NCBI GenBank assembly: GCA_017407835.1
Contig: JAFQVV010000026.1
Coordinates: 62,001-126,000, forward strand
Length of the DNA stretch: 64,000 bases
Source of the DNA: Clostridia bacterium
Lineage (GTDB): Bacteria; Bacillota; Clostridia; Oscillospirales; CAG-272
Direction: 5' to 3'
In this document: positions 1,884 to 17,347 of the stretch, piece after piece
Position numbering within the stretch: position 1 is the stretch's first letter
How the letters are laid out: every line of letters starts with the position of its first letter
Notes under the pieces: model-generated
The model's input: the letters and a program-made list of their open reading frames with translations, nothing else
Told to the model about the DNA's origin: nothing
Databases searched by the model: none
Position numbers and translations under genes: made by a program

Positions 1884-1912
1884 ATTATACGCAGAAAATG
1901 TGTCTAAATCAA
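1884..1912 (-). promoter_or_regulatory. Sigma-A-type promoter of the activase gene
   Basis: On the minus strand TTGATT (1907-1912) and TATAAT (1884-1889) are separated by 17 bp and point at the activase gene about 120 nt downstream. Confidence 0.6.
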
Positions 1913-1992
1913 CCAAACAGTTGAAATTTGTGCCGTTTTTTCTGCCGATTGGCAAAAAAACACCAATATACACACCGTTTTGGCCATTTCTA

Positions 1993-2043
1993 TTGACTTG
2001 TCCGATCCAAAACAGTATAATAAACTTAAATGAACATGTTCAT
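1993..2043 (+). promoter_or_regulatory. TetR operon promoter with overlapping palindromic operator
   Basis: TTGACT (1993-1998) and TATAAT (2016-2021) lie 17 bp apart. A perfect 14-bp palindrome, ATGAACATGTTCAT (2030-2043), covers the expected transcription start. This is the usual place and form of a TetR-family operator, so autorepression by the next gene is likely. Binding is inferred, not shown. Confidence 0.75.
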
Positions 2044-2061
2044 AATCCGCAGGAGATATCT

Positions 2062-2586
2062 ATGCCCAAAATTCTTGAAAATGTGCGCGAACAATTGTTG
2101 GCCGAAGCCGCAAGACAAGTGATTGAATATGGTTACGCCCAAACCACCATGCGCTCGGTCGCCGCAGCATGCAGCTTGGGTGTTGGAACGGTGTATAATT
2201 ACTTTCCATCGAAAGATATGCTGATTGCATCCTGTATGCTGGAGGATTGGCAGTGTTGTTTGCAGTTGATGGGACAGGCACCATGCGGCGATACAAAAGC
2301 CTTTTTGTACGGGATATATTCTGCCATTCGTCATTTCTCTCAAAAATACGCAAAGCTTTTTTCTGATGCGGATGCGGCAAAAGTCTTTTCCTCCGTCGCG
2401 GGTGAGCGGCATATACAGCTTCGTGATCAGTTGGCGCAAATTATCCTTCCCATTTGCGATAACTCCCCCATACCCAACAAAGCGTTTTTGGCTTCTTTCA
2501 TCGCCGAAGAAATGCTCCGTTGGATAATGGAAGGCACTGACTTTGAAGAAATTTCCCCTGTTTTTCTGCAGTTGTTAAAAAAATAA
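2062..2586 (+). CDS. TetR/AcrR family transcriptional regulator
   Basis: A 174-residue regulator and the first gene of the operon. The N-terminal helix-turn-helix is typical: VIEYGYAQTTMRSVAAACSL followed by GVGTVYNYFPSKDMLI at about residues 17-52. The C-terminal part is the variable ligand-binding and dimerisation domain. An upstream in-frame ATG exists at 1900, but the ATG at 2062 has an AGGAG box 7 nt away and follows the promoter and operator at 1993-2043, so that start is used. It probably represses the four downstream genes until their substrate or a related ligand binds. The ligand is unknown; a hydrophobic molecule would suit the operon content. Confidence 0.88.
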   Translation: MPKILENVREQLLAEAARQVIEYGYAQTTMRSVAAACSLGVGTVYNYFPSKDMLIASCMLEDWQCCLQLMGQAPCGDTKAFLYGIYSAIRHFSQKYAKLFSDADAAKVFSSVAGERHIQLRDQLAQIILPICDNSPIPNKAFLASFIAEEMLRWIMEGTDFEEISPVFLQLLKK

Positions 2587-2604
2587 TATAAAGGAGACAA
2601 AATC

Positions 2605-3534
2605 ATGAGCAGTTTCGAAAACCTTCGCATCGTGGACAATTTCTATCAGACCTCCCTGTTTTTTCCGATGCCTACCGTGATCATTAGTACCCTCTGTGAG
2701 GACGGTAGAACCAATCTCGGCCCATACTCGTTGGTGCAGCCTTATTATGTTGCAGGCAAGGATTACTACGCCATGCTTCTGTGCTGCCGCAATTCCTCCA
2801 ACACCGCGCAGAATATTCTGCGCAACGGCAAGTGTGCGCTCAATTTTATCCATGATGATCCCAAAATGTTCAAGGAAGCAGTTAAGCTTTCCTGGCCCGG
2901 CGACAAGCCTTCGGAGAAAATGCCCAAGTGCAACTTCAAGCTTGAGACGAGCATGATCGAAGAGGAAAACGCTGAGGATAAGCGCCCCATGGTGATGACC
3001 GATGCCATTCAGGTCATCGAATGCACATGGATGCGCGAGCTTGACGGTGCGGACAAGGACTTGGCGGGTGAGCTGAACGGTTACGAGCCGCCTTATCACG
3101 ACTTCAACGGTATTACCAGTAAATTCGGAGCGCACTTTATTCTTCGTGTGGATAAAATCCTGATGAAGAAAAAGTACAGCGATGCCATCATCAACGGTGT
3201 CAGGGCGAAAGATTTTCCCGCGCTGCCGGTTGATTATGGCTACCGTGACAGCAAAAACTTCTGGTTCCACCGCAAAACGCGGATGCGTGCCGAGCTGCTG
3301 CAGATGCGCCAGGCTTCGCTTGAGTCGGTGCGCTATGCCGCCGACCGCGCCGATGATAAAATCAAATTCACCGATGATGCACTGATGACCATCCTCGGGG
3401 TGCCGCGTGTCTTTTTATCGGTTGTGCTCAAGGGGTGCATCGAATGGGCAAGAGAAAACAATGTTGAGCTGATCACGGCAGAGCACATGAAGATCATCAA
3501 CGATAAACGCGCAAAAGAAAAAAATAAGAAGTAA
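2605..3534 (+). CDS. Flavin-reductase-like FMN-binding protein with C-terminal PCP_red-like domain
   Basis: Of the 309 residues, about 1-190 resemble the FMN-binding split barrel of the flavin reductase/DIM6-NTAB family (VIISTLCEDGRTNLGPYSLV near residue 25, then RNSSNTAQNI). A basic linker follows. The last 45 residues (DDALMTILGVPRVFLSVVLK, then a helix with IEWARE and ITAEHM) resemble the small domain of protochlorophyllide-reductase-type proteins (PCP_red). The split barrel suggests flavin-dependent reduction or electron transfer to a partner. The RBS is AAAGGAG and the gene starts 18 nt after the TetR gene. Its position ahead of two NAD(P)-type reductases suggests one of several steps in reducing a small molecule. 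The substrate cannot be told from sequence. Confidence 0.75.
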   Translation: MSSFENLRIVDNFYQTSLFFPMPTVIISTLCEDGRTNLGPYSLVQPYYVAGKDYYAMLLCCRNSSNTAQNILRNGKCALNFIHDDPKMFKEAVKLSWPGDKPSEKMPKCNFKLETSMIEEENAEDKRPMVMTDAIQVIECTWMRELDGADKDLAGELNGYEPPYHDFNGITSKFGAHFILRVDKILMKKKYSDAIINGVRAKDFPALPVDYGYRDSKNFWFHRKTRMRAELLQMRQASLESVRYAADRADDKIKFTDDALMTILGVPRVFLSVVLKGCIEWARENNVELITAEHMKIINDKRAKEKNKK

Positions 3535-3554
3535 AAAACAAAGGAGGAATTATC

Positions 3555-4406
3555 ATGAAAGTTGTACTTGCGGGCGCATACGGCAATCTCGGTGCCGATA
3601 TTTTCAAAACCTTGCTGGCGCACGGGCATGAGGTTGTCGCAGCAGATATGGCAGAACGTGACCTCGGTGTGGAGGGGAACTTCTCCTTCCGTCAGATTGA
3701 TGTCACAAACCCCGAGAGCCTGCGCGGTCTGTGCGACGGTGCCGATGTTGTCATCACCACCGTTGGGCTGACCAAAACCTCTGCAACTGTAACCAATTAT
3801 GAGATTGACTATCAGGGTAATCTCAACCTGCTCAATGAGGCCAAGGCTGCAGGGGTGAAGAATTTTGCCTATATCTCGGTCATCAAGGCAGACAAAGCCC
3901 CCAAGGTCCCCATGCTGCACGCAAAATATCTCTTTGAGGAAGAGCTCAAGAAGAGCGGTATCACCTATTGTATCACCCGCCCCACGGGATATTTCTATGA
4001 TATTGTCAAAGTATTCAAGCCGATGATTGAGAAGGGCGAGGTTACGCTGCTCGGCAAGAAACCCGTTCACGCCAATGTCATCTCAACCGAGGATTTCGCC
4101 GATTTTATTGTTGCGCATATGTGCGATGAGAATAAGATGTACGACATCGGCGGCAGGGAAATCTATTCCTACGAGGAGATTGCCAACCTGTGCTTTGCCG
4201 CGGCAGGCAAGGAGCCCGTGATCAAACGTGCCCCCGCTTTCCTTTTCGATGTGCTTGCTTTTGTCAATAAACTCAAGAAGAACGGAAAAGACGCAATTCT
4301 TCGTTTCTCCAAATGGACGCTGACCGAAGAGATGGTCGGCTCTACCATCCATGGTGATATGAGCTTCGCCGAATACATCAAAGACAGCTTTAAGGAGGAA
4401 AAATAA
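3555..4406 (+). CDS. NAD(P)-binding atypical short-chain dehydrogenase (NmrA/epimerase-like)
   Basis: A 283-residue Rossmann protein. The dinucleotide-binding turn is at residues 7-14 (GAYGNLGA), and an acidic residue at the end of beta-2 (VAADM) may favour NAD. It has the ITTVGLT strand, YISVIKADKAP, and a late YDIGGREIYSYEEIANL segment as in complex-I-subunit-like/NmrA atypical SDRs. A classical YxxxK pair is not obvious. It may oxidise or reduce a hydroxyl/keto group, or bind cofactor only. It has a strong AAGGAGG RBS and is followed after 2 nt by the DUF1295 gene. In this context a 3-hydroxysteroid dehydrogenase-like or related role is possible but unproven. Confidence 0.8.
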   Translation: MKVVLAGAYGNLGADIFKTLLAHGHEVVAADMAERDLGVEGNFSFRQIDVTNPESLRGLCDGADVVITTVGLTKTSATVTNYEIDYQGNLNLLNEAKAAGVKNFAYISVIKADKAPKVPMLHAKYLFEEELKKSGITYCITRPTGYFYDIVKVFKPMIEKGEVTLLGKKPVHANVISTEDFADFIVAHMCDENKMYDIGGREIYSYEEIANLCFAAAGKEPVIKRAPAFLFDVLAFVNKLKKNGKDAILRFSKWTLTEEMVGSTIHGDMSFAEYIKDSFKEEK

Positions 4407-4408
4407 GT

Positions 4409-5218
4409 ATGCCTTGGTCACTTTTGGGGATTCTTTTTGCCGTTTGCGCTGTGATGTGCTGCGTCGGCTTTTATAAGTTTGTCTATTTTCTTTCCATCGG
4501 TTACGGCTTCGCCGTTGCCGGTGGAGGAATTGCCGTTTTCGTGATGTATCTGCTCAATCCCACTGCCACACCGATCTGGATTGTGCTTGTACAGATGTTC
4601 CTCTTTATCGCGTACGGTGCTCGCCTCTCGGGCTTTCTGCTTGTCCGTGAGCTGAAAAATGTTTCGTTCAAGAAAACCGATGTTGCAAAGGACACCCTCG
4701 CCAAAAACAACGAAAAGAAGATGCCCATCTTCGTCCTGGTGACGATCTGGCTTGTGGTTGCCGTGCTCTATGTGGCACAGGTCAGCCCCATGCTCTTCCG
4801 CTTTGATAATGGTTCTGCCGATATTATTGTGCCGATCGTTGGTTTTGTCATCTCGATTTTCGGTCTGATTTTGGAGTCTATTGCGGACAATCAAAAATCT
4901 GCGCAGAAAAAGGCGCGCCCTGATATGGTGGCAACCGAGGGACTCTATCGCATTGTCCGTTGTCCCAATTACCTGGGCGAGATCATTTTCTGGACCGGCG
5001 TTTTCATCAGCGGCATTACCGCATATGCTACCGCAGGGCAGTGGATTACCGCTGTTGTCGCTTACATCTGCATTGTATACATTATGTTCAACGGTGCCCA
5101 GCGCCTGGAAAAGAGGCAGATGGCGCGTTACGGTGACAACGAAGCGTACAACACCTACGCCAATAAAACCCCGATTATTATCCCGCTCCTGCCCATCTAT
5201 CATCTCAACAAAAAATAA
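4409..5218 (+). CDS. DUF1295 integral membrane protein, steroid 5-alpha-reductase-like
   Basis: A 269-residue protein with about six or seven hydrophobic segments. The C-terminal half carries the DUF1295/steroid 5-alpha-reductase signature: GLYRIVRCPNYLGEIIFWTG (about residues 178-197), ending with EAYNTYANKTPIIIPLLP. Relatives include eukaryotic steroid 5-alpha reductases, which reduce a C=C bond next to a ketone with NADPH, and bacterial homologues implicated in bile-acid and steroid conversion. The RBS lies in the end of the upstream reductase gene, so translation is probably coupled. The family also resembles isoprenylcysteine methyltransferases, so methyl transfer is an alternative. Reductase activity is inferred from family and neighbours. 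Confidence 0.82.
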   Translation: MPWSLLGILFAVCAVMCCVGFYKFVYFLSIGYGFAVAGGGIAVFVMYLLNPTATPIWIVLVQMFLFIAYGARLSGFLLVRELKNVSFKKTDVAKDTLAKNNEKKMPIFVLVTIWLVVAVLYVAQVSPMLFRFDNGSADIIVPIVGFVISIFGLILESIADNQKSAQKKARPDMVATEGLYRIVRCPNYLGEIIFWTGVFISGITAYATAGQWITAVVAYICIVYIMFNGAQRLEKRQMARYGDNEAYNTYANKTPIIIPLLPIYHLNKK

Positions 5219-5235
5219 GACCGAGGAGAGGAAAA

Positions 5236-5871
5236 ATGAAAGACTTTTCCGTTTCGATGGCGCTTGTCGACTATATCCCCGTCATATTCTTTGCTGCCGC
5301 AGCGGTTATTCTGATGCGCGATCTGTACAACAAAATGAGCAAAGGTGCGTTTGCACTCTTTGCTGCAGGTACGATTGATATCACCTGTGCGGGCGCGTTC
5401 AAGGCAACCTATAAGCTGCTTTATGCGGCGGGTGTGTGCGATTTTGAAGCACTTAACGCCATGTTCTTTCCCGTGCAGTCGATTGGGTTTCTGCTCGCGG
5501 GGATCGGTATTCTTGCCATGCTTGTACATCGTCAATCGAATGCCGCAATGCTTGCCGTGGCACCGCCCGTATTTGGCGGAACATTCGTCTTTGTGGGCTT
5601 GATGGTCGCAGGCCTTGGGTTGATGGATGCTGTCCTCTGCATTCTTTCCGTGAAACTGAAAAAGCCCATTCTTGTTCTGCTCTTTACCCTTTCCTTTGTT
5701 TGCTCACTTTGCATGGGGTATCTTTCCTCCCGGGATTTTGCCGAAGCGTCGATGAACTGGATTGCCGAGGGTGTGAATATCATCGGTCAGGGTGCACTGC
5801 TTGCCGGTGTACTGCTTCTGCATAAGCAAGGCTTGGCGGAACTGCATCTTCGCCCACAAGAAACAGCGTGA
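5236..5871 (+). CDS. Unrecognised integral membrane protein, last gene of the TetR operon
   Basis: A 211-residue protein, hydrophobic almost throughout, with an estimated six transmembrane helices (about residues 10-28, 38-58, 75-95, 100-130, 135-155 and 170-190). There is no signal peptide, cofactor motif or conserved charged cluster that would allow a family call. It follows the DUF1295 gene after 17 nt with a GAGGAG box and is followed by the operon terminator. It may carry or hold the substrate of the reductases in the membrane, but nothing in its sequence shows this. Confidence 0.65.
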   Translation: MKDFSVSMALVDYIPVIFFAAAAVILMRDLYNKMSKGAFALFAAGTIDITCAGAFKATYKLLYAAGVCDFEALNAMFFPVQSIGFLLAGIGILAMLVHRQSNAAMLAVAPPVFGGTFVFVGLMVAGLGLMDAVLCILSVKLKKPILVLLFTLSFVCSLCMGYLSSRDFAEASMNWIAEGVNIIGQGALLAGVLLLHKQGLAELHLRPQETA

Positions 5872-5967: not shown

Positions 5968-5996
5968 TTGACAACTTCGCCCGGACGAAGTATAAT
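5968..5996 (+). promoter_or_regulatory. Consensus promoter of the two-HTH regulator gene
   Basis: TTGACA (5968-5973) and TATAAT (5991-5996) are both perfect and 17 bp apart. The spacer holds a degenerate copy of the palindrome that repeats downstream. A promoter this strong needs repression, which fits the operator array. Confidence 0.85.
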
Positions 5997-6091
5997 ATAA
6001 ATACTTAGATTCGTTCGAACGAAGTGCGGTCTGTGAGACGCCGTTCGTTCGAACGAACTGAAATTTGAGACAAGCGCTTCGTTCGAACGAA
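5975..6091 (+). promoter_or_regulatory. Array of four palindromic operators at exact 34-bp spacing
   Basis: Three identical perfect palindromes TTCGTTCGAACGAA lie at 6010-6023, 6044-6057 and 6078-6091. A degenerate copy, TTCGCCCGGACGAA, lies at 5976-5989, inside the promoter spacer. Their centres (5982.5, 6016.5, 6050.5, 6084.5) are each exactly 34 bp apart, while the 20-bp intervals between them are unlike one another. The three perfect copies sit at or downstream of the expected transcription start, in the 5' untranslated region of the regulator gene. This looks like a cooperative repressor array. The likely binder is the product of the next gene (inference). Confidence 0.8.
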
Positions 6092-6126
6092 TCTGCCCGG
6101 AGCGCATGGCGTTTTAGCGAAGCAAA

Positions 6127-7356
6127 ATGGATGAGGCGAAAATGGAAAAAATAACCGTACAGCAAGCGGCGGAAAAATGGGGCGTTACCCCACGCCGTGT
6201 ACAAGACCTCTGCCGTCGCGGCGAGATAAAGGGAGCAATTTTATGGCATCGTTCGTGGATGATTCCCGAAGATGCGGTATATCCCCGGTGTACAACCCAA
6301 GATATCGATCAGCCGTTGCCCCGTAAAACCCCGTTTTTGCATATGACCGATCTTTACCGAACGCCCGGCAGTGCCGAAGCGAGTATTGATCAGCTGTCGT
6401 ATAATCACGAGGCTCAAGTGCTTTTGTCGGCAGAAATTGCCTATTCCCGAGGGGATATTGAAAAGGTTTACCAAAATGCAAAATATCTGTTGGCAAAGCA
6501 CTCCGGATTTTATGCTGTTCTTTCAGGAGGAATGCTGCTGGCACTGTGCGCGATATGGCGAGGAGATCTTGATCTGTGGAGACAGGCAAAGATACACATA
6601 TTTGAGGCACCTGCCCAAAATGATACCGACAGAGATATTGTTTCGTTTACGATTGCTGCCGTGGACTGTATGCTGTATGATGTGAACTCTTTCCCCGAAT
6701 GGTTCAAAATCGGGAATTTTGAGCTTTTGCCTCCTGATGCTCTGCCTGCAGCAAAGATATATTATGCCAAATATTTGTATACGGCAGCGTACGCGTTGGC
6801 TACAAAACAGATTGAAGTGCCGGGTGTTGAGGGGCTTGCGCTGATGGCTATGCTTCCGTATACCATTGAGCCGATGATTTCTCAGGCATGTGCCGATAAC
6901 TCGATTATCTGCGAGATTTATCTGCGTATGATTTGTGCCGTTGTTTATCACACCATCGGCGATGATACGCAGGCGGTTCGCCATATTGACCGTGCCATTG
7001 ATTTAGCACTCCCCGATAGGCTCTACGGTATTCTTGCCGAATATTGCCGCCTGCTGGGCTCTATGTTGGAGAAGCGTGTCTGCCGAGTAGATCCACAGGC
7101 ATGGGAAACGATAAAATCACTCTATAAAACGTACAGTACGGGATGGTCATTTTTGAGCGGAAGTGTTCGCGGCCGCCGCATTGTTACAACACTCTCACTC
7201 AAGGAGCGCGAAGTTGCCAAGCTTGCCGCTTTCGGCATGAGCAATCCCGAAATTGCCGAAAAATTGCACATGTCGCTTCCGGCCGTAAAACAGGCTATTC
7301 GTATTACTGCCGAAAAGTCGGGCGTCAGCAGAGGTGAATTTGCCACCATTCTCTGA
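6127..7356 (+). CDS. Regulator with N-terminal excisionase/MerR-like HTH and C-terminal LuxR-type HTH
   Basis: A 409-residue protein. Residues 6-50 (TVQQAAEKWGVTPRRVQDLC, then IKGAILWHRSWMIPEDA) form a HTH_17/excisionase-like DNA-binding fold. The middle (about 60-345) is helical, tetratricopeptide-like in feel, and probably senses a signal or mediates oligomerisation. The end (about 355-409: SLKEREVAKLAAFGMSNPEI, then AEKLHMSLPAVKQAI) is a GerE/LuxR-type HTH. There is no receiver domain, so it is not a classical response regulator. Two start codons are possible, 6127 and 6142 (ATGGAAAAAATAACC); neither has a strong Shine-Dalgarno box. It sits behind the four-operator array and ahead of the Cys-rich and giant surface-protein genes, which it may control. 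Its target is not proven. Confidence 0.75.
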   Translation: MDEAKMEKITVQQAAEKWGVTPRRVQDLCRRGEIKGAILWHRSWMIPEDAVYPRCTTQDIDQPLPRKTPFLHMTDLYRTPGSAEASIDQLSYNHEAQVLLSAEIAYSRGDIEKVYQNAKYLLAKHSGFYAVLSGGMLLALCAIWRGDLDLWRQAKIHIFEAPAQNDTDRDIVSFTIAAVDCMLYDVNSFPEWFKIGNFELLPPDALPAAKIYYAKYLYTAAYALATKQIEVPGVEGLALMAMLPYTIEPMISQACADNSIICEIYLRMICAVVYHTIGDDTQAVRHIDRAIDLALPDRLYGILAEYCRLLGSMLEKRVCRVDPQAWETIKSLYKTYSTGWSFLSGSVRGRRIVTTLSLKEREVAKLAAFGMSNPEIAEKLHMSLPAVKQAIRITAEKSGVSRGEFATIL

Positions 7357-7529
7357 GGAATATATCTTTTGATGGGATTAACAGATATATAACCTTGGAA
7401 AAGGCGCTCAAAAATAGAGCCGAAAAAAGTGGTTTTGGGTAATACTCAAAATTTTGGAAATCTGCTATACTATTTACAACATGAAATGGTATGGCAGATT
7501 TTTCTGTCCAATGTCAGAAAGGAGACGGG

Positions 7530-7895
7530 ATGTTTAGTACTTTTGTATCCCAGGCGGCGCATGAAAGCGAACGTGTCCCCCGCGAAGGTGAGCTTTACCG
7601 GCTGGTAAATATTCACGGGAAGAGCTTTGCACTTCATTACGGATATTATGCGGAATGTGATCGGATAAATCCATTGGCTTCACCGATTCCCATTTATCCC
7701 GATTTTATCGAAGAGCCGCAATACACGGATGAAGGTTTTGCATTTGTCACCATGATGCAGGATGCATGTCAACACTTTGACGGCAAAGCCGATCGGGACA
7801 ATGATTGCAGCGGATGTGGGTATTTCAGCCGCTGTGAAGAATTGTTTGGCATCTGTACCTGCCAGGCGAACAAAAAGAAAACCAACGGTGAATGA
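7530..7895 (+). CDS. Small protein with C-terminal cysteine cluster
   Basis: A 121-residue protein whose start is fixed by an AAAGGAG box 7 nt before the ATG at 7530; the longer in-frame reading from 7491 lacks one. There is no signal peptide or membrane segment. The C-terminal 30 residues hold five cysteines in CxxCxxxxxCxxxxxxCxC spacing (DCSGCGYFSRCEELFGICTC), which could bind a metal or an Fe-S cluster. I do not recognise the family. It ends 41 nt before the giant SLH protein start, so the two may be co-transcribed from a promoter whose TATACT -10 box is at 7466-7471; no good -35 is visible, so an activator may be needed. Confidence 0.65.
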   Translation: MFSTFVSQAAHESERVPREGELYRLVNIHGKSFALHYGYYAECDRINPLASPIPIYPDFIEEPQYTDEGFAFVTMMQDACQHFDGKADRDNDCSGCGYFSRCEELFGICTCQANKKKTNGE

Positions 7896-7936
7896 AACGA
7901 AAAAGAAAAAACATATCAATAAATTGGAGGTTATTT

Positions 7937-10900
7937 ATGAGAACCAACTGGATGAGAACGATTAGTTTCATGCTTTCCTTGTGCATGATTATGTCGTTTC
8001 TGCCTATGGGTATATGGGCAGAGGGGGGGACTTCTTCCTCAAGTGCCATTATCCCCGCAGAAGAAACGGCGGTCATTACATTTATATTCAATGTAGACAG
8101 CACTGAATACGGAAGACAAAATATCAAGAGCGGGGAATCACTGATCGAGCCGGAAGCACCCTATAAGGCTTCGATGAAGTTCCTCGGCTGGTATACCGAA
8201 GAGGATACCCAATTCACTTCTTTCAATCAGCCTATGCTGATCAATACCGATGCAGAGATCACCCTGACTGCAAAGTTTGAGGAAGTATACCATGTTTACT
8301 TCCTCAATGCAGAGAACGGCTCGATTCTGGTGACTAAGGAAGCGAAAGACGGCGAAACAGTTTCGGTATCGGACGTCTCGCTTCACCTCTATGCAGACAC
8401 CGCGCTGACCGGATGGAAGGATGAGGCCGGCAAGACTGTTGGGGACAGCGTGACCGTCAACGGTGCCAATATCACACTCACACCGATTATTTCGGATGGC
8501 CATTGGATTACCTATGAGTCGGGCAGCGGCTCCTCGTATATCTGGCCTACTTTTGTTCCGCCCGGGACAGCAACGCATACCCCCGTTGAACCCGTCCGTC
8601 CGGGATATGTTTTCTCGCACTGGTCGCTGAGTGAAAACGGAAGTGCCTATACGTTCGGTTCTGTACTGACCGAAAGCATTACACTCTACGCTGTCTGGAC
8701 ACCCAGTACAAATACCAATTATCTCGTTATCCACTGGTGGGAGAATGCAGATAATACCGAGTATTCTTATCATGAGAGTGAAGTACTCAGCGGTACTACC
8801 GATACCATGAGTGCAGCGAGAGCAAAGAGCTACGGTGGCTTTACCGCACAAACCATTACCCAGCAGACCATTGAAGCCGATGGTTCGACGATTGTAAACG
8901 TTTACTACAACCGCAATATATATACCATCAAATTCCAAGAGTATGTGCGTTCGGGATTCCTCGGCGGCAGATGGCAGGATATTGATGGATTGACCATCAC
9001 CGCTAAGTATGGTGCACATATTGCCGGATTGTGGCCCTCTTCCACTTCATCCATGTGGCAAACGAGCTCCAGCAGCTGGGACACAAAGTATCAAAGCGGA
9101 ATCGATACCATGCCGCTTGGCGGAGCGACCTTCTATAAGCCAAGTGATGACGGCGGCAGCTATACGATGGAGCTCCGTTATTACACCGAGGTTCTCGATG
9201 GTACGGCAGGTGCTCATACATACAACGGCGGAAACTACAGCCTTGATCATAAAGATGTTTTTGGCAGCGATGACAATAGATGGTACACCACCGAAGAAGA
9301 CCACTATCCGATCATTGGTTTCACCTACACCAATAATCTGCCCGACCGTTCTTCCTTTACGCGTGAAGGCGACAGCAATCTCTATTATGTAGAATTCTTC
9401 TATACCAGAAATGATTACAACATCGTCTTCATCAACGGCGGCAGCACCGAGTCTACCGTTACCAAGCAGTACGGTGCAAGTTTGGATGATGTATCGCACA
9501 CGCCTGCACGCCCGGACAATGTACCGGTCGGCTATACCTTTGCCGGTTGGTATGACAATGAAGATCTGATCGGTAATCCCGTTTCTTTTGCAGGTCAGAC
9601 CATGCCCGCGGCAAATATAGTTGTTTATGCAAAATGGGTTGAGCCCGACATTACCGCAACCTTCTATTCCGGACGTATCGGGGCGGAAAACAATACCATT
9701 CTGCAGTCGCTGAATGTTGATTACGGTACCACGATTCCGCGCGATCAGATTCCGGTCTATCCGCTCGGCGGCACCTATAACTGGATCGGCTGGGTGACGG
9801 CTGACGGTGCAAACTTTAACTTTGATACCAAACTGTATGAGAGCGTAGAGCTCTATCCCTATTATGTCAGCCAGAACTACTTCACCGTGGAGTATGATGC
9901 CAACGGCGGTACAGGTACTGTACCGGTGGACGGCAATACCTACCTGGATTACAGTGAAGCTACCGTTCTTCCCGCTGAGGGGCTGAGCAAGAGTGGATAT
10001 GTATTCCTTGGCTGGAATACCGCAGCTGACGGCAGCGGCACGACCTATCAGCCCAATGACCTGATGCAGATCAAGTCGGTCAATGTCAAGCTTTGGGCGA
10101 AGTGGGGCGACGAACCTGCAGCTGGAACATCACTGACCTACGATGCAAACAACGGGTCGGGGGAGACGTATGTGCTCAGCAATCTCCTCAACAATACCAA
10201 GCATACCGTGCTTACGCTTGCCGCAACAGGCTTTAGCAACACCAATTATGAATTCTTGGGTTGGAGTGAGAGCGCATCGGCAAAAACGCCCGACTACCTG
10301 CCCGGTGATGCAGTCGTCCTCGCCAACAGCGGCACCAACATTCTGTATGCTGTCTGGGAGATCAAATTCACCTCCTATACGGTAAACTATTACCTCAACA
10401 ACACCACCGATGTACTTACCGCATCGAAGACCGTTGAAAATGCAGTCATCGGTTCAACGGTGACGACCGAAACACCCGTCGCAATCAATGGTTATACCCC
10501 CGTGGCTGGGCAGAGTGCAAATCTCGTTCTGGATGCTGATGCATCAAAGAATGTGATTAACTTCTATTATCACAAGAATGTCACCCTGACCGCCAACAGC
10601 AGCACCGTAAAATATGACGGCACGCAGAAGAGCGTCAGCGGCTATACCTCCAATGATGCGGGCGCCGTCTTTGCAGGCATTACCGTGGGGGCTGCCGGTA
10701 CCGATGCTGCAACCTATCCTGCGAAGTTTGCCTCCGGTGTTGTCGGGACGGTGGACGCGACAGGGAAGTATATTGTGGCAGAAGCGATTGACGGGGCACT
10801 CACCGTTCAGCCGCGTTCTCTCACCTTGACCTCCGCGTCCGACCAAAAAGGCTATGATGGCACACCACTGAAGAACGACGCTGTCTCTGTTTCGGGCGAC

Positions 10901-13900
10901 GGCTTTGTCGCAGGTGAGGGCGCTGCGTATACGGTAACCGGTTCGCAGACCTATGTTGGTACAAGCGACAATACCTTCACCTATACACTCAACGCAAACA
11001 CCAAAGCGCAGAACTATATGATCACAACTGAGTATGGCACACTCGCTGTTACCAATCTCCATGAGAGTGCCAAGTTTGAGATCACCGTTGAAGCAAACTC
11101 CGGGGAATATCTCTATGACGGCACCGAAAAAACAGTCAGCGGTCTTGTGACAACGACCTTTACCATAAACGGTGTGACCTATACCGTTGAGGGCTTGACT
11201 GCCTCTGCAGCAGGCACCAATGCAGGGAAATATTTCTCTGTGGTAAAGGGTACTCCTGTTGTCCGCGATGCCGCAGGTGTGGATGTAACCGCTCAGTTCG
11301 TCGTTGGGACCGTTGATGGTATCCTGACCGTCAACAAGCGTGCCATTACCTTCACCTCGGCAAGTGATCAGAAGGAATATGACGGCACGCCCCTGACCAA
11401 TGACACCGTAACGATCGGCGGGGACGGTTTTGCACCGAACGAAGAAAATCTTGTTGTCTTCAACGTATCCGGATCCCAGACGCTGGTCGGTTTCAGCCCC
11501 AATACCTTTGATTATCAACTCAAAAACAGAGCACTTTCCGAAAACTACACTATCACCAAGATTGAAGGTGAGCTGCGTGTCCTCACCAGAGACGCAAAAT
11601 ATGAAGTTACCGTTTACGCCAACGATGGGGAATTCCTCTACGATGGCCAAGAGCACGTTGTCAGCGGCTTCAAATCCCTTGAGGTTGAAGCAGGCGGCAA
11701 ACTCTACACTGTCTCCGGTCTGACTGCCGTGGGCAGGGCGACCAATGCAGGTACCTACTTTGTCACAGTTTCGGGTACGCCTGTTGTCACCGATGCGGAT
11801 GGCAACGATGTCAGCGGCGAGTTCGATGTTGATGCATTCCCCGGCAGACTGATCATTACCAAACGAGCCGTCACCCTAACCTCTGCGACTGCCGAGAAGG
11901 TTTATGACGGACAGCCGCTCTACGACCACACCGTGACTGTCAGCGGAAAGGATGGCTTTGTCGCAGGTGAGGGTGTCAACACTCACGTTACCGGTTCGCA
12001 AACCCTCGTTGGAACCGTACCGAACACCTTTACCTATACCGCCAAGGCAGGCACTAATCTCGATAACTATGAGATTGACAAAATTCAGGGTCAGCTGACA
12101 GTACATAACCGCTCCACGCTCTATGCCATCGAAGTTGAGGCAAACTCGGGTGAATTTACCTACGATGGTACCGAAAAGACGATCAGCGGCTTCAAGACTC
12201 TGACCTTCACGGTCGGCGGCAAAACCTATACTGTCTCTGGACTGACCGCATCCGGTAAGGGCACAGATGCAGGGCATTACTCGGTCACCGTATCGGGTAC
12301 ACCTGTTGTCCGTGACGATGCACAGAACGATGTCTCCGCACAGTTTGCTGTATCGGTCAAGCACGGTGAGATTTCGATTGCCAAGAGAACCGTTGTTCTG
12401 ACCTCGGCAACTGCCAGCAAGGAATATGACGGCAAGCCGCTGCAGAACGACAAGATCACGGTAACCGGAGACGGATTTGCCGATGGAGAGGGCGCTGCCT
12501 ACACCGCAACCGGTATCCAGACGCTTCCCGGCTCCAGCGAAAACCGCTTTACCTTCGCGCTCAATGCCAATACGGAGCGTGATAACTACAGCATTACCCT
12601 CAATTACGGTACTCTCACAGTAACCGACCGCGCCGCAAAGTATGAGATTACACTGCACGTCAACTCGGGCGAGTATCTCTACGATGGCAAAGAAAAAACG
12701 GTCAGCGGTTTCCGTAATACCGAGTTTGAAATTGGCGGACTTGATTTTACCGTCAGCGGTGTTACGGCATCCGTATCGGCAACCAACGCAGGTACCTATC
12801 CCGTTAAGATCACCGGTACGCCCGTTGTTCTGGATGCCTCAGGCAACGATGTAACAAGCCAGTTTATCGTGCACATCGACCACGGCATGCTGCAGATCAA
12901 CAAACGCAGCCTGACTCTTGTTTCGGCGAAAGACAGCAAGTTCTACGATGGTACACCGCTGACAAACAGCACGATCTCCATCATCGGTGCAGGCTTCGCT
13001 GACAGTGAAGGTGCATCGTATAATGTGACCGGCTCCCAGCTTCTTCCCGGTGAGAGCGATAACACCTTCACGTATACGCTCAATGTGGGGACTAATCCCG
13101 ACAACTATATTATCACCACCGCGTTTAGTAAGCTGATTGTTTTCTCCGCACAGGCGAAGTATGAGATTCTTGTAATTGCCAACAGCGGTGAATTCAAGTA
13201 TGACGGCACCGAAAAGACGGTGTCCGGCTTCACCACCCTCGATTTTACGATCAATGGTGTCAAGTATACGGTTGAGGGTATTCGTGCCGAAGCGAAGGGG
13301 ACCGACGCAGGTTATTATCCTGTCACCGTGATCGGCGATGCCATTGTCAAGGATGCGCACGGCAACAATGTCACCGATCAGTTTGCAGTGGATTACAGAC
13401 AGGGCACAATGCAGATCACACGTCGTGATGTTACGCTGACCTCGGGCAATGCCGAAAAGGTTTACGATGGTCTGCCCTTGATGGAGGATACCGTAACGGT
13501 TGGCGGTGACGGATTTGCTGTAGGTGAGGGTGCAGTGTATGATGTCACCGGCGAGAGAACGCTCCCCGGTACAAGTACCAACCACTTCAGCTATACCCTC
13601 AACGCAGGGACTAAAGCAGAAAACTACAATATCACACAGCTTTACGGGAACCTGACGGTGAACAACCGCGGTGCTAAGTATGAGATTACCGTAAAGGCAA
13701 AATCGGACGAAGTTGTCTATGACGGTAACGTACACGCTATCACCGCGCTTGAACAGACGGTATTTACCATTGATGGAAATGTTTATACTGTCTCCGGTCT
13801 GAATGTTGAAGGAATTGGTACAGACGCGGGCGAATACACCGTTCGCGTATGGGGTACTCCCGTTGTCTCTGACAGCGCAGGAAACAATGTGACCGCTCAG

Positions 13901-16900
13901 TTTACGGTGCATACCGATAACGGCAAGCTGATCATCAACAAGCGCAGTGTTACCATTGCGTCGGCCAACGCGCAGAAGCAATATGACGGCAAGGCGTTGA
14001 CCAACCATACTGTTTCTGTCACCGAAGGTTCGTTTGTAGGAACCGAGGGACTGATTTATACCGTTACCGGAACCCAGACGCTGATCGGTACCAGCCCCAA
14101 CACCTTCAGCTACGCCGCAAAGGCAAACACTAAACTCGGCAACTATGTCATTACGGTAAAATACGGTGAACTCTCCGTGCTTGATCGCACGCAGAAGTAC
14201 GAGATTACGCTTGAGGCAAATTCCGGTGAATTCGCCTATGACGGCAAGGAAAAGACTGTCTCCGGCTTCAAGACCTTGACCTTCACCATTGATGGGAATA
14301 CCTATACCGCAGAGGGGGCTTCCGCATCGGTTACTGCAGCTGCTGCAGGTACATATCCCGTCGAGATCAAGAACCTCGATCAGCTGGTGATCAAGGATGC
14401 TTCGGGCAATGATGTGACAAGCCAGTTCGTCGTTGTAACGGTGGACGGCTCGCTGAAGATCAATCCTCGCCGTGTCGTGCTTACCTCTGTCAGCCTGGAA
14501 AAGGAATATGACGGCAAGCCGCTGACCAACGGTAGCAATGCCATTGTGGTCTCCGAGGGCGGTTTTGCTGACGGAGAGGGTGTTGACATTACCTTTACCG
14601 GCGCCCAGACCAATGTCGGTACCAGTGCCAATGCCTTCACCTATACCATGAAGCAGGGAACAGACGCCCAGAACTACGAAATTCGCGTTGTCGAAGGCCA
14701 GCTCAAGGTTGTGAGCCGCGCCGATTCGACCAAGTATGAAATTACGCTGGTTGCAAATTCCGCAGACTATCTTTACACCGGCAAGGTAGAGTATGTCAGC
14801 GGCTTCAAGACTCTGGAATTCACCTTTGACGGCGTTACCTATTCAGTCAGCGGTGTCAAGGCATTTGCAGAAGGCACCGACGCAGGTAAATATACCGTTA
14901 ACATTACAGGTGATCCCGTTGTTACCGCGCCCGATGGCTCTGTTGTGACTGATCAGTTCAAGATCGACTATATCCGCGGTACCATGAATATTGCACACCG
15001 TGAGATTTATCTTGTATCTGCCGACCTGACCAAGGAATTTGACGGCACACCGCTGACCAATGGCAGCACACCGTTGGTCAATGTGAACCGCGGGGACGGT
15101 TTTGTCAACGGCGAAGGTGTTAAGGTTACCTTTACCGGTTCTCAGACCCTGCCCGGTACTGTTGCCAACAGCTTCACCTATACCTTCAACGAGGGCACCA
15201 AGGCCATCAACTACCATATCCACATTGAGGAAGGTCAGTTGACTGTTACTAACCGCAACGTGGCATATAAGATTTACCTGACTGCCAACAGCGGCGAATT
15301 CAAGTATGACGGCACCGAAAAAACGGTCACCGGTTTCCATACGCTGGTCGTTGGTTTGGATAAGAATAACAACAATCTGCCCGAAACAGACGAGCCGCAG
15401 GCGAAATTCGAGCTTTCCTCCTCGGATAAGATCAGCTTCACCTGGAACGGCGAGACATATGAGCTCACCGGTTTGACGGCGATGGGCCGCGGAACCAATG
15501 CTGACGAATATGCTGTCAGTGCATCGGGTACTGCGCAGATCAAAAACGCTGCAGGTGACGATGTCTCCGACCAGTTCGCAGTCATTGTCAAAGAAGGTAC
15601 GCTGGTAATCGGCAAGCGTTCGGTGATCATGACTTCTCCCACCGCAGCCAAGCAGTTTGACGGCAATCCCCTTACCGCACACGGCATTACCGTGACAGGT
15701 GACGGATTTGTCGAAGGTGAAGGCGCTTCCTACAACGAAATCGGTTCGCAGACCTATATTGGCGAGAGCCCCAACACCTTCTATTATACCCTCAATCAGG
15801 GCACGATGGCAGAAAACTATGCGATCACGACCGAATTCGGTAAACTCACCGTAACCGATCGTACCGATAAGTATGACATCACGCTCCAAGCAAACTCCGG
15901 TTCCTTCAAATATGATGGTACCGAAAAATCGGTTGAAGGCTTCAAGACTCTGACATTTGTCTTTGACGGTGTTACCTATACCGTAGATGGTGTGACTGCC
16001 TCCGCATCTGCGACCGATGCCGGTGAATATGCCGTCTCGGTTAAGGGAACTCCCGTTGTTCGTGACGAGAACGGAAAAGACCTTACCGCGTTGTTCAACG
16101 TGACAACGAACGATGGCAAGCTGACCATCACGAAGAGAAGCGTTTACCTCACGTCCGCATCTGCCGAAAAGGATTATGACGGCGCCCCCCTGACCAATCC
16201 TGCCGTTTCCGTGACGGGTGACGGTTTTGCCGCAGGCGAAGGTGCAGATTATACCGTAACCGGTTCGCAGACCGAGGTCGGCACATCGCCCAACACTTTC
16301 ACCTATACACTGTACAGCAATACCAAGGCAGACAACTACGAGATCATCTCGCAGTTCGGCCGGCTTCAGGTCTTCCTCTCAACCGGCAGTGCCATGCTGC
16401 ACAAGGTTGATTCCCGGGATTTTGATACCCCGCTGGCAGAGGCTGAATTTGAACTGTATGTTATGGGGTCTGACGGGGATGAGCTGATCGGCAGCTATGT
16501 TACCGATGCCGAAGGAAATATTTCGGTCACAGATTTGACGCCGGGTATGTATTATTGGGTAGAGATTACTGCCCCCGAGGGATATATGCTCGATACACAG
16601 AAGTATTATCTGACTGTCACCGTCGGCTCTGCTTCCGATGTAACTGTGACCAATGTAAGAACCCCCGTTCCCGATGTCTTTGGCTTCGATCACTTCGCAT
16701 ATATCATCGGCTATCCCGACGGTACTGTACGTCCCGAAGCCCCCATTACCCGTGCCGAGGTCGCAACCATCTTCTTCCGTCTGCTGGATGATAATGTTCG
16801 CAATGTGTATATGACCAAGGAGAACTCCTTTAATGATGTAAATAAGGATGCATGGTTCAATACGGCAATTTCGACAATGGCTGCAATGGGTATCTTACGC

Positions 16901-17347
16901 GGCGATCCTGACGGCTCTTTCCGTCCCGATGATTCCATTACCCGTGCAGAGTTTGCGGCAATCGCGGCACGCTTTGAAGAAAACGGCGATTCTACGCCCG
17001 CTAACTTTACTGATCTGTACAATCATTGGAGCGCAGAAGAGGTTAGCATTGCTGCCAATAATGGCTGGATTTTAGGCTATGAAGATAATACCTTCCGTCC
17101 CGATCAAAACATCACACGTGCGGAAGCCATGACGGTGATCAACCGTGTTCTGCAGAGAATCGTGAAAGATCCCGATCATCTTCTCGCAGGGATGGTGACC
17201 TGGAGCGACAATCTTGACACCAACAAGTGGTACTATCTCGCGGTTCAGGAAGCCACTAACAGCCACTATTATTCCCGCCAAGACAATGGGTATGAGATCT
17301 GGATTGATCTTCGTCCCATCAGAGATTGGAAAGAACTTGAAAAATAA
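7937..17347 (+). CDS. Giant cell-surface protein: InlB-type and MBG/YDG-type repeats, Cna-B domain, three SLH domains
   Basis: A secreted protein of about 3,136 residues. The ATG at 7937 has a GGAGG box; the earlier in-frame ATG at 7892 does not. Residues 1-28 form a signal peptide ending GIWA. Residues about 45-875 are some nine Listeria-Bacteroides (InlB B-type) or MucBP-like repeats with the FLGW / YAVW signature. Residues about 880-2815 are 11 tandem pairs of Ig-like modules (see the repeat entry). Residues about 2817-2909 form a Cna-B/SpaA-like domain (FDTPLAEAEFELY, ITAPEGYML). Residues about 2913-3076 are three SLH domains (GYPDGTVRPEAPITRAEVAT, RGDPDGSFRPDDSITRAEF, GYEDNTFRPDQNITRAEAM), which bind secondary cell-wall polymers. 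There is no LPXTG motif. It is likely an adhesin or S-layer-associated stalk; the ligand is unknown. Confidence 0.92.
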   Translation: MRTNWMRTISFMLSLCMIMSFLPMGIWAEGGTSSSSAIIPAEETAVITFIFNVDSTEYGRQNIKSGESLIEPEAPYKASMKFLGWYTEEDTQFTSFNQPMLINTDAEITLTAKFEEVYHVYFLNAENGSILVTKEAKDGETVSVSDVSLHLYADTALTGWKDEAGKTVGDSVTVNGANITLTPIISDGHWITYESGSGSSYIWPTFVPPGTATHTPVEPVRPGYVFSHWSLSENGSAYTFGSVLTESITLYAVWTPSTNTNYLVIHWWENADNTEYSYHESEVLSGTTDTMSAARAKSYGGFTAQTITQQTIEADGSTIVNVYYNRNIYTIKFQEYVRSGFLGGRWQDIDGLTITAKYGAHIAGLWPSSTSSMWQTSSSSWDTKYQSGIDTMPLGGATFYKPSDDGGSYTMELRYYTEVLDGTAGAHTYNGGNYSLDHKDVFGSDDNRWYTTEEDHYPIIGFTYTNNLPDRSSFTREGDSNLYYVEFFYTRNDYNIVFINGGSTESTVTKQYGASLDDVSHTPARPDNVPVGYTFAGWYDNEDLIGNPVSFAGQTMPAANIVVYAKWVEPDITATFYSGRIGAENNTILQSLNVDYGTTIPRDQIPVYPLGGTYNWIGWVTADGANFNFDTKLYESVELYPYYVSQNYFTVEYDANGGTGTVPVDGNTYLDYSEATVLPAEGLSKSGYVFLGWNTAADGSGTTYQPNDLMQIKSVNVKLWAKWGDEPAAGTSLTYDANNGSGETYVLSNLLNNTKHTVLTLAATGFSNTNYEFLGWSESASAKTPDYLPGDAVVLANSGTNILYAVWEIKFTSYTVNYYLNNTTDVLTASKTVENAVIGSTVTTETPVAINGYTPVAGQSANLVLDADASKNVINFYYHKNVTLTANSSTVKYDGTQKSVSGYTSNDAGAVFAGITVGAAGTDAATYPAKFASGVVGTVDATGKYIVAEAIDGALTVQPRSLTLTSASDQKGYDGTPLKNDAVSVSGDGFVAGEGAAYTVTGSQTYVGTSDNTFTYTLNANTKAQNYMITTEYGTLAVTNLHESAKFEITVEANSGEYLYDGTEKTVSGLVTTTFTINGVTYTVEGLTASAAGTNAGKYFSVVKGTPVVRDAAGVDVTAQFVVGTVDGILTVNKRAITFTSASDQKEYDGTPLTNDTVTIGGDGFAPNEENLVVFNVSGSQTLVGFSPNTFDYQLKNRALSENYTITKIEGELRVLTRDAKYEVTVYANDGEFLYDGQEHVVSGFKSLEVEAGGKLYTVSGLTAVGRATNAGTYFVTVSGTPVVTDADGNDVSGEFDVDAFPGRLIITKRAVTLTSATAEKVYDGQPLYDHTVTVSGKDGFVAGEGVNTHVTGSQTLVGTVPNTFTYTAKAGTNLDNYEIDKIQGQLTVHNRSTLYAIEVEANSGEFTYDGTEKTISGFKTLTFTVGGKTYTVSGLTASGKGTDAGHYSVTVSGTPVVRDDAQNDVSAQFAVSVKHGEISIAKRTVVLTSATASKEYDGKPLQNDKITVTGDGFADGEGAAYTATGIQTLPGSSENRFTFALNANTERDNYSITLNYGTLTVTDRAAKYEITLHVNSGEYLYDGKEKTVSGFRNTEFEIGGLDFTVSGVTASVSATNAGTYPVKITGTPVVLDASGNDVTSQFIVHIDHGMLQINKRSLTLVSAKDSKFYDGTPLTNSTISIIGAGFADSEGASYNVTGSQLLPGESDNTFTYTLNVGTNPDNYIITTAFSKLIVFSAQAKYEILVIANSGEFKYDGTEKTVSGFTTLDFTINGVKYTVEGIRAEAKGTDAGYYPVTVIGDAIVKDAHGNNVTDQFAVDYRQGTMQITRRDVTLTSGNAEKVYDGLPLMEDTVTVGGDGFAVGEGAVYDVTGERTLPGTSTNHFSYTLNAGTKAENYNITQLYGNLTVNNRGAKYEITVKAKSDEVVYDGNVHAITALEQTVFTIDGNVYTVSGLNVEGIGTDAGEYTVRVWGTPVVSDSAGNNVTAQFTVHTDNGKLIINKRSVTIASANAQKQYDGKALTNHTVSVTEGSFVGTEGLIYTVTGTQTLIGTSPNTFSYAAKANTKLGNYVITVKYGELSVLDRTQKYEITLEANSGEFAYDGKEKTVSGFKTLTFTIDGNTYTAEGASASVTAAAAGTYPVEIKNLDQLVIKDASGNDVTSQFVVVTVDGSLKINPRRVVLTSVSLEKEYDGKPLTNGSNAIVVSEGGFADGEGVDITFTGAQTNVGTSANAFTYTMKQGTDAQNYEIRVVEGQLKVVSRADSTKYEITLVANSADYLYTGKVEYVSGFKTLEFTFDGVTYSVSGVKAFAEGTDAGKYTVNITGDPVVTAPDGSVVTDQFKIDYIRGTMNIAHREIYLVSADLTKEFDGTPLTNGSTPLVNVNRGDGFVNGEGVKVTFTGSQTLPGTVANSFTYTFNEGTKAINYHIHIEEGQLTVTNRNVAYKIYLTANSGEFKYDGTEKTVTGFHTLVVGLDKNNNNLPETDEPQAKFELSSSDKISFTWNGETYELTGLTAMGRGTNADEYAVSASGTAQIKNAAGDDVSDQFAVIVKEGTLVIGKRSVIMTSPTAAKQFDGNPLTAHGITVTGDGFVEGEGASYNEIGSQTYIGESPNTFYYTLNQGTMAENYAITTEFGKLTVTDRTDKYDITLQANSGSFKYDGTEKSVEGFKTLTFVFDGVTYTVDGVTASASATDAGEYAVSVKGTPVVRDENGKDLTALFNVTTNDGKLTITKRSVYLTSASAEKDYDGAPLTNPAVSVTGDGFAAGEGADYTVTGSQTEVGTSPNTFTYTLYSNTKADNYEIISQFGRLQVFLSTGSAMLHKVDSRDFDTPLAEAEFELYVMGSDGDELIGSYVTDAEGNISVTDLTPGMYYWVEITAPEGYMLDTQKYYLTVTVGSASDVTVTNVRTPVPDVFGFDHFAYIIGYPDGTVRPEAPITRAEVATIFFRLLDDNVRNVYMTKENSFNDVNKDAWFNTAISTMAAMGILRGDPDGSFRPDDSITRAEFAAIAARFEENGDSTPANFTDLYNHWSAEEVSIAANNGWILGYEDNTFRPDQNITRAEAMTVINRVLQRIVKDPDHLLAGMVTWSDNLDTNKWYYLAVQEATNSHYYSRQDNGYEIWIDLRPIRDWKELEK
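10574..16380 (+). repeat. Eleven tandem repeat pairs (about 176 aa each) in the giant surface protein
   Basis: Each unit pairs module A (KYEITVEANSGEYLYDGTEK-like, ending in DGxLTINK) with module B (RxVTLTSAxAEKxYDGTPLT-like, with GDGFAxGEG, TGSQT and NTFTYTL). Units begin near 10574, 11070, 11596, 12119, 12637, 13153, 13673, 14191, 14729, 15262 and 15867. They match the style of bacterial Ig-like YDG/MBG repeats. Unit 10 is longer because of a hydrophilic insertion (LDKNNNNLPETDEPQ). The copies have diverged at the DNA level, so the array is not freshly duplicated. Confidence 0.9.

Follow-up and report, generated by a model that had tools for sequence, protein, structure and literature searches.

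The described systems closest to the locus analysed here include the MerR/excisionase-type winged helix-turn-helix (wHTH) regulators, among them BldC, which occupies repeated, cooperative-looking sites arranged as direct repeats in the form of a head-to-tail oligomer (PMC5859096). In the MerR family, the operator is located in an over-long promoter spacer of 19-20 bp. The large ATP-binding LuxR proteins (MalT/LAL) consist of an ATPase module, a TPR-like superhelix and a C-terminal LuxR-type HTH. In the SARP-LAL proteins, of which PimR is an example, an N-terminal winged SARP (OmpR-like) domain that binds repeated sites is fused to LAL-like parts; PimR is without the C-terminal LuxR HTH, and its repeats are direct heptamers (PMC5930380). 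Lambda integrase is a heterobivalent protein, with its small N-terminal domain on repeated arm-type sites and the rest on core-type sites (PMC4880445).

The locus described here lies in the window, the whole stretch of 64,000 nucleotides of a Clostridia bacterium contig that was analysed, where an array of palindromes precedes the gene of a regulator with two HTH domains. No description of this regulator family was found in the open-access literature searched. It is shown computationally that the array goes with the regulator, and that the N-terminal HTH with the array and the C-terminal HTH with a second DNA element covary separately.

Probable Operator Array at the Regulator Promoter

The promoter of the regulator gene is located on the + strand and consists of the -35 hexamer TTGACA (5968..5973, consensus at 6/6 positions), a 17-bp spacer and the -10 hexamer TATAAT (5991..5996), with a score of 12/12. 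An earlier note on this DNA had described four palindromes phased at 34 bp across a perfect promoter, and all of these features were found, with centres at 5982.5, 6016.5, 6050.5 and 6084.5 (spacings 34/34/34). The sequence TTCGTTCGAACGAA occurs three times without change, at site 1 (6010..6023), site 2 (6044..6057) and site 3 (6078..6091), each located by exact match. Site 0 (5976..5989) is a degenerate copy, TTCGCCCGGACGAA, which fills the -35/-10 spacer. The 20-bp intervals separating the palindromes are unlike one another in sequence, also as claimed, and the assignment of three sites to the transcribed leader and one to the spacer agrees with a likely start site at ~6003, inferred from the -10 hexamer. 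Roadblocking by the downstream sites is possible.

The source genome (2.07 Mb in 41 contigs, 98 % complete) was searched as a whole, and the exact 14-mer TTCGTTCGAACGAA was found at these three places only. The tandem-pair pattern TTCGN6CGAA-N9..22-TTCGN6CGAA likewise matched at this promoter only in the whole genome, and the reversed control pattern gave 0 matches. As a separate observation, a dispersed repeat with two palindromes (TTCGGCAAGCCGAA..TTCGCGGTCGCGAA) is present at G031:C76, G179:C40 and G135:C49, with five listed copies in one genome; it is apparently unrelated to the regulator. The gene run upstream of the array (1900-5871) encodes a TetR regulator, a flavin reductase-like, an NmrA-like and a DUF1295/steroid-dehydrogenase-like protein, as well as a membrane protein that matches EutH weakly, and is possibly a reductase operon.

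Conservation and Spacing of the Array in Relatives

A protein search returned 15 relatives of the regulator at 50-66 % identity, and the regulator was found in 74 of 395 sampled genomes of the same family (24 of 71 genera). Its distribution is patchy: 4 further genomes from the genus of the source organism were in the sample, and none carries it. At least one CG-N5/6-CG palindrome was present at most 200 bp upstream in 82 of 91 distinct regulator loci, with 1.75 palindromes observed per relative locus compared with 0.09 in shuffled upstream regions. The palindrome arms vary by lineage (TTCG/CGAA, AGCG/CGCT, TGCG/CGCA) and are usually concordant inside one locus. The AGCG-type pair was single and located at the regulator promoter in 5 of 6 genomes; in the sixth genome, the regulator is present as two contig copies, each of them with the pair.

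The palindromes and their spacing are kept in the relatives, but the 34-bp phasing proposed in the note is not universal, as the spacing falls into two classes of ~25 and ~33 bp. Of 77 neighbour spacings, 37 lay at 22.5-26 bp and 33 at 32-36 bp, with 0 at 27-31. Loci with multiple spacings (15 in all) nearly always hold to one class, the exceptions being a weak fifth palindrome match in the window array (spacing 22.5) and a spacing of 41 in L103. Because the relatives show two classes, 34 bp is one conserved solution and no unique constant. The operator spacing itself is most likely under selection. A reading as strict helical phasing was set aside, given that the class modes of 25 and 33 bp are 8-9 bp apart, as against 10.5 bp per turn.

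The array keeps in step with the promoter core: the spacer site holds one register relative to the -10 hexamer, and the first downstream site mostly falls in a narrow range for each class. A promoter was recognised at 81 loci, and at 77 of these the -35/-10 spacer measured 17 bp. The spacer-site centre was at -8.5, counted from the start of the -10 hexamer, in 8/8 loci where the scan finds one, although the promoter call is doubtful for one of them (L020). In the short class, 26 of 30 loci had their first downstream site at +16.5; in the long class, 17 of 19 had it at +22.5 to +25.5, a range that includes the centre of site 1 in the window (+25.5). A distant regulator subfamily (L149-L163, about 27 % identity) was found in other families of the order. 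In many of its members, the -35/-10 spacer holds one palindrome-like stretch, as judged by eye rather than by count (e.g., CTACGGATATTCGTA-TATAAT in L151); the spacer site may therefore be older than the other array sites.

Domain Organization of the Regulator

The regulator gene extends from 6127 to 7356 on the + strand, and the true start is probably the in-frame ATG at 6142, based on a GAGG ribosome-binding site and agreement with the relatives. According to Pfam, AlphaFold2 and Foldseek, the product is two-headed, and the two different HTH domains reported for the gene behind the array were recovered. The protein of 409 amino acids begins with an HTH_17 wHTH of the MerR type (residues 10-51; 35.1 bits in Pfam against a cut-off of 27), continues with a TPR-like helical middle (about 83-343) and ends with a LuxR/sigma-region-4-type HTH (about 355-409). 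For this C-terminal HTH, Sigma70_r4_2 and HTH_23 were above the Pfam cut-off, and GerE was just below it (22.7 bits, cut-off 23.5). The AlphaFold2 model had a mean pLDDT of 78.5, and Foldseek matched it to MalT domain III (1hz4) with a probability of 1.00 and TM scores of 0.41/0.46, at a weak E of 0.19.

The autoinducer-binding domain of the LuxR quorum-sensing regulators had no Pfam match in the protein, and a STAND-type ATPase module had none in Pfam or NCBIfam. The MerR-type C-terminal coiled coil and effector domain are absent, and the wHTH is followed by the TPR-like helical middle and then by the second HTH. The sequence search of solved structures gave weak LuxR-HTH matches only, and the plasmid and phage search gave HTH-domain or partial matches only, which provides no evidence of mobility. 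Several of the relatives (L016, L018, L027, L035) have one in-frame stop codon per regulator gene, which suggests decay or assembly error, and such relatives were excluded from the structure alignment.

Second Element and Downstream Operon

The gene order of regulator, small Cys-containing protein and giant secreted protein is kept in most relatives. The small protein (7491..7895, + strand, start probably 7530), which has a homologue after the regulator in most relatives, has a Cys-rich C-terminus (SGCGYFSRC..CTC) and no match in Pfam or NCBIfam. The giant secreted surface protein of 3151 amino acids (7892..17347, + strand, start probably 7937) contains Listeria-Bacteroides repeats, SpaA and three SLH domains.

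The interval between the regulator and the next gene holds, in the relatives, a conserved RACC-AAAAA-N-TTTT-RGGTARTACC followed by an extended -10. In the window, this second element is GCCGAAAAAAGTGGTTTTGGGTAATAC (7419..7445, + strand), which has a single copy in its own genome, is recognisable in relatives and is a candidate site of the C-terminal HTH. The downstream promoter has an extended -10, (TGC)TATACT, at 7466..7471 (+ strand) and no -35 consensus. This -10 sits inside the rising arm of a 19-bp hairpin with a T-run (7457..7502, + strand, fold -26.3 kcal/mol), which is a candidate for an intrinsic terminator behind the regulator gene. The hairpin with embedded -10 was found in 47 of 69 loci, with arm changes compensated, and it looks like a terminator that carries a promoter in its rising arm. 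Such a hairpin would end the regulator transcript but leave intact those initiated within the loop.

Covariation of the Two HTH Domains With Separate DNA Elements

The sites had been taken for operators of the adjacent regulator, with recognition by a LuxR-type HTH implied. The first part of this claim holds up as the most likely reading; the second part is not supported, as the operator sequence follows the N-terminal HTH_17. Operator distance was correlated with N-terminal HTH distance (Mantel 0.42 raw, and 0.44 partial given the middle and the C-terminal HTH), with a p value at the permutation floor of 0.0005, in permutations that model phylogeny incompletely and with other protein segments as the only covariates. 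The best 20-residue window for operator covariation comprised residues 21-40. Columns 34, 27, 31 and 24 of the N-terminal HTH track outer operator bases; for the inner base, the tracking column is 40, which lies in the predicted wing.

The second element behaved in the reciprocal manner. Its distance was correlated with that of the C-terminal HTH (Mantel r 0.64 raw, 0.55 partial), and the value for the N-terminal HTH given the other segments was -0.04. The top columns for this covariation included two recognition-helix residues, K388 and Q389.

Proposed Mechanism and Alternative Explanations

Based on the sequence evidence, we consider it likely that the protein is a heterobivalent regulator, in which the N-terminal head represses the regulator's own promoter through the array and the C-terminal head activates the surface-protein promoter. 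The four palindromes would form an auto-operator array read by the N-terminal excisionase/MerR-like wHTH, which probably binds as dimers on neighbouring palindromes, and occupation of the spacer and the start region would shut the consensus promoter, giving negative autoregulation. The C-terminal LuxR-type HTH would read the second element just upstream of the extended -10 promoter and thereby activate the operon of the small Cys-containing protein and the giant secreted surface protein. The terminator hairpin holding the downstream -10 would keep the regulator and surface-protein transcripts apart, and the TPR-like middle may sense a ligand and exert control.

A possible, if somewhat doubtful, alternative, which overlaps with this mechanism and differs in the role of the array, is that the N-terminal head activates as well as, or instead of, repressing, with the array as an anchor or enhancer and the bivalent protein bridging array and promoter element. 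Tandem pairs are also found ahead of further genes or operons for secreted proteins, where 140-215 bp separate them from a candidate -10 downstream, a position that fits activation over repression, so that the N-terminal head may do more than repress. Within a genome, arrays at additional surface-protein loci matched the resident N-terminal HTH in 5/5 cases (four on other contigs and one, L144, about 4 kb beyond its regulator), and the promoter elements at distant loci matched the resident C-terminal HTH in 3 of 4, with L142 failing. Because other arrays and the genome's own auto-operators had an exact 14-mer in common in just 2 of 7 cases, HTH covariation was used as the criterion for these matches. 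Against this alternative, the sites at the regulator's own promoter overlap the spacer and the start region of a consensus promoter, which is the classic position of a repressor.

It is unlikely that another factor, such as the TetR-family protein encoded at 1900-2586, binds the array and that the covariation arises from linkage or mosaic recombination. Each element adjoins the codons of its own HTH, and neighbouring stretches of DNA are often inherited together, which by itself could mimic covariation; in the short class, the intervals also covary with the N-terminal HTH (r 0.41), a contribution there of linkage or of a longer recognition sequence. In the long class, however, the covariation was confined to the operators (r 0.61) and did not extend to the inter-operator intervals (r 0.11, n.s.). 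The operator covariation peaked in the recognition helix. Similarly, the 48 nt after the regulator stop, which are nearer to the codons of the C-terminal HTH, gave r 0.15 (n.s.) compared with 0.65 for the second element. Moreover, the array accompanies the regulator across the 24 genera carrying it in the sample, and the covariation extends to arrays elsewhere in the genome. Linkage as the sole cause was rejected on the interval, flank and distant-target controls.

The reading implied by the earlier note, in which the LuxR-type HTH binds the palindromes and the N-terminal HTH does something else, is very improbable. A LuxR-type HTH is present in the regulator, and palindrome binding is common among LuxR-type proteins; but operator distance was uncorrelated with C-terminal HTH distance (-0.03 raw, -0.08 partial), near-identical sites occur with unrelated C-terminal HTHs (L097 vs L042/L046; L033 vs L064), and the same C-terminal HTH is found with different sites and tracks the second element instead. 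Among natural swaps, operator distance was 0.18 where the N-terminal HTH was the same and the C-terminal HTH different (12 pairs, of which 6-7 include L097 and are not independent), and 0.47 in the reverse case (53 pairs). The LuxR-type HTH was rejected as the array reader on the covariation. Finally, an action of the repeats as RNA, through leader hairpins or an attenuator pairing repeats in the transcript, has very little to recommend it: the arms could form short hairpins in many relatives and neighbouring sites are mutually complementary, but 8 loci have a site at one set position within the -35/-10 spacer, which is not transcribed, distant homologues have a single spacer-like site (by eye), arrays at other operons lie far upstream of the candidate promoter, the spacing is quantised and an Rfam search gave nothing above a gathering cut-off, and an RNA leader was rejected on the spacer sites and upstream arrays.

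Returning to the heterobivalent regulator, we tentatively suggest that its two unrelated HTHs, at opposite ends of the protein, read different operators at once, that DNA looping bridges the lattice-like array and the promoter element to switch giant surface proteins, and that the N- and C-terminal heads are exchanged between lineages as modules. If the heterobivalent reading is right, the locus would represent a widespread control system for the giant surface proteins of gut Clostridia, given its occurrence in 74/395 family genomes and 24/71 genera. The DNA-reading heads would already have been swapped by natural recombination, making the specificity code of two HTH folds readable from sequence and open to direct test, and the lattice, with its two spacing classes and its anchoring to the promoter core, would offer a clean test case of how operator spacing constrains a multimeric regulator.

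Comparison With Known Systems

Each part of the system is of a known kind, and the combination with two separately recombining specificities was not found described in the open-access literature searched. With the MerR/excisionase-type regulators including BldC, the locus shares the HTH_17 wHTH, the spacer location of site 0 and the repeated, cooperative-looking sites. However, the sites here are tandem palindromes, unlike those of BldC, and the spacer that holds site 0 is 17 bp, unlike that of the MerR family; in contrast to the whole group, the regulator has a large TPR-like body plus another HTH at its C-terminus. A superhelix of TPR-like form ahead of a C-terminal HTH of LuxR type may be shared with MalT/LAL, as suggested by the weak Foldseek match, but no ATPase module was detected here, and the protein has an N-terminal wHTH with an apparent operator of its own. 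As in the SARP-LAL proteins, an N-terminal winged DNA-binding domain acting on repeated sites would be joined to LAL-like parts, although the domain here is HTH_17 and its sites are palindromes. The resemblance to lambda integrase would lie in the heterobivalent use of repeated sites by a small N-terminal domain and of other sites by the rest of the protein; as the integrase is a recombinase and not a transcription regulator, this is an analogy of binding logic only.
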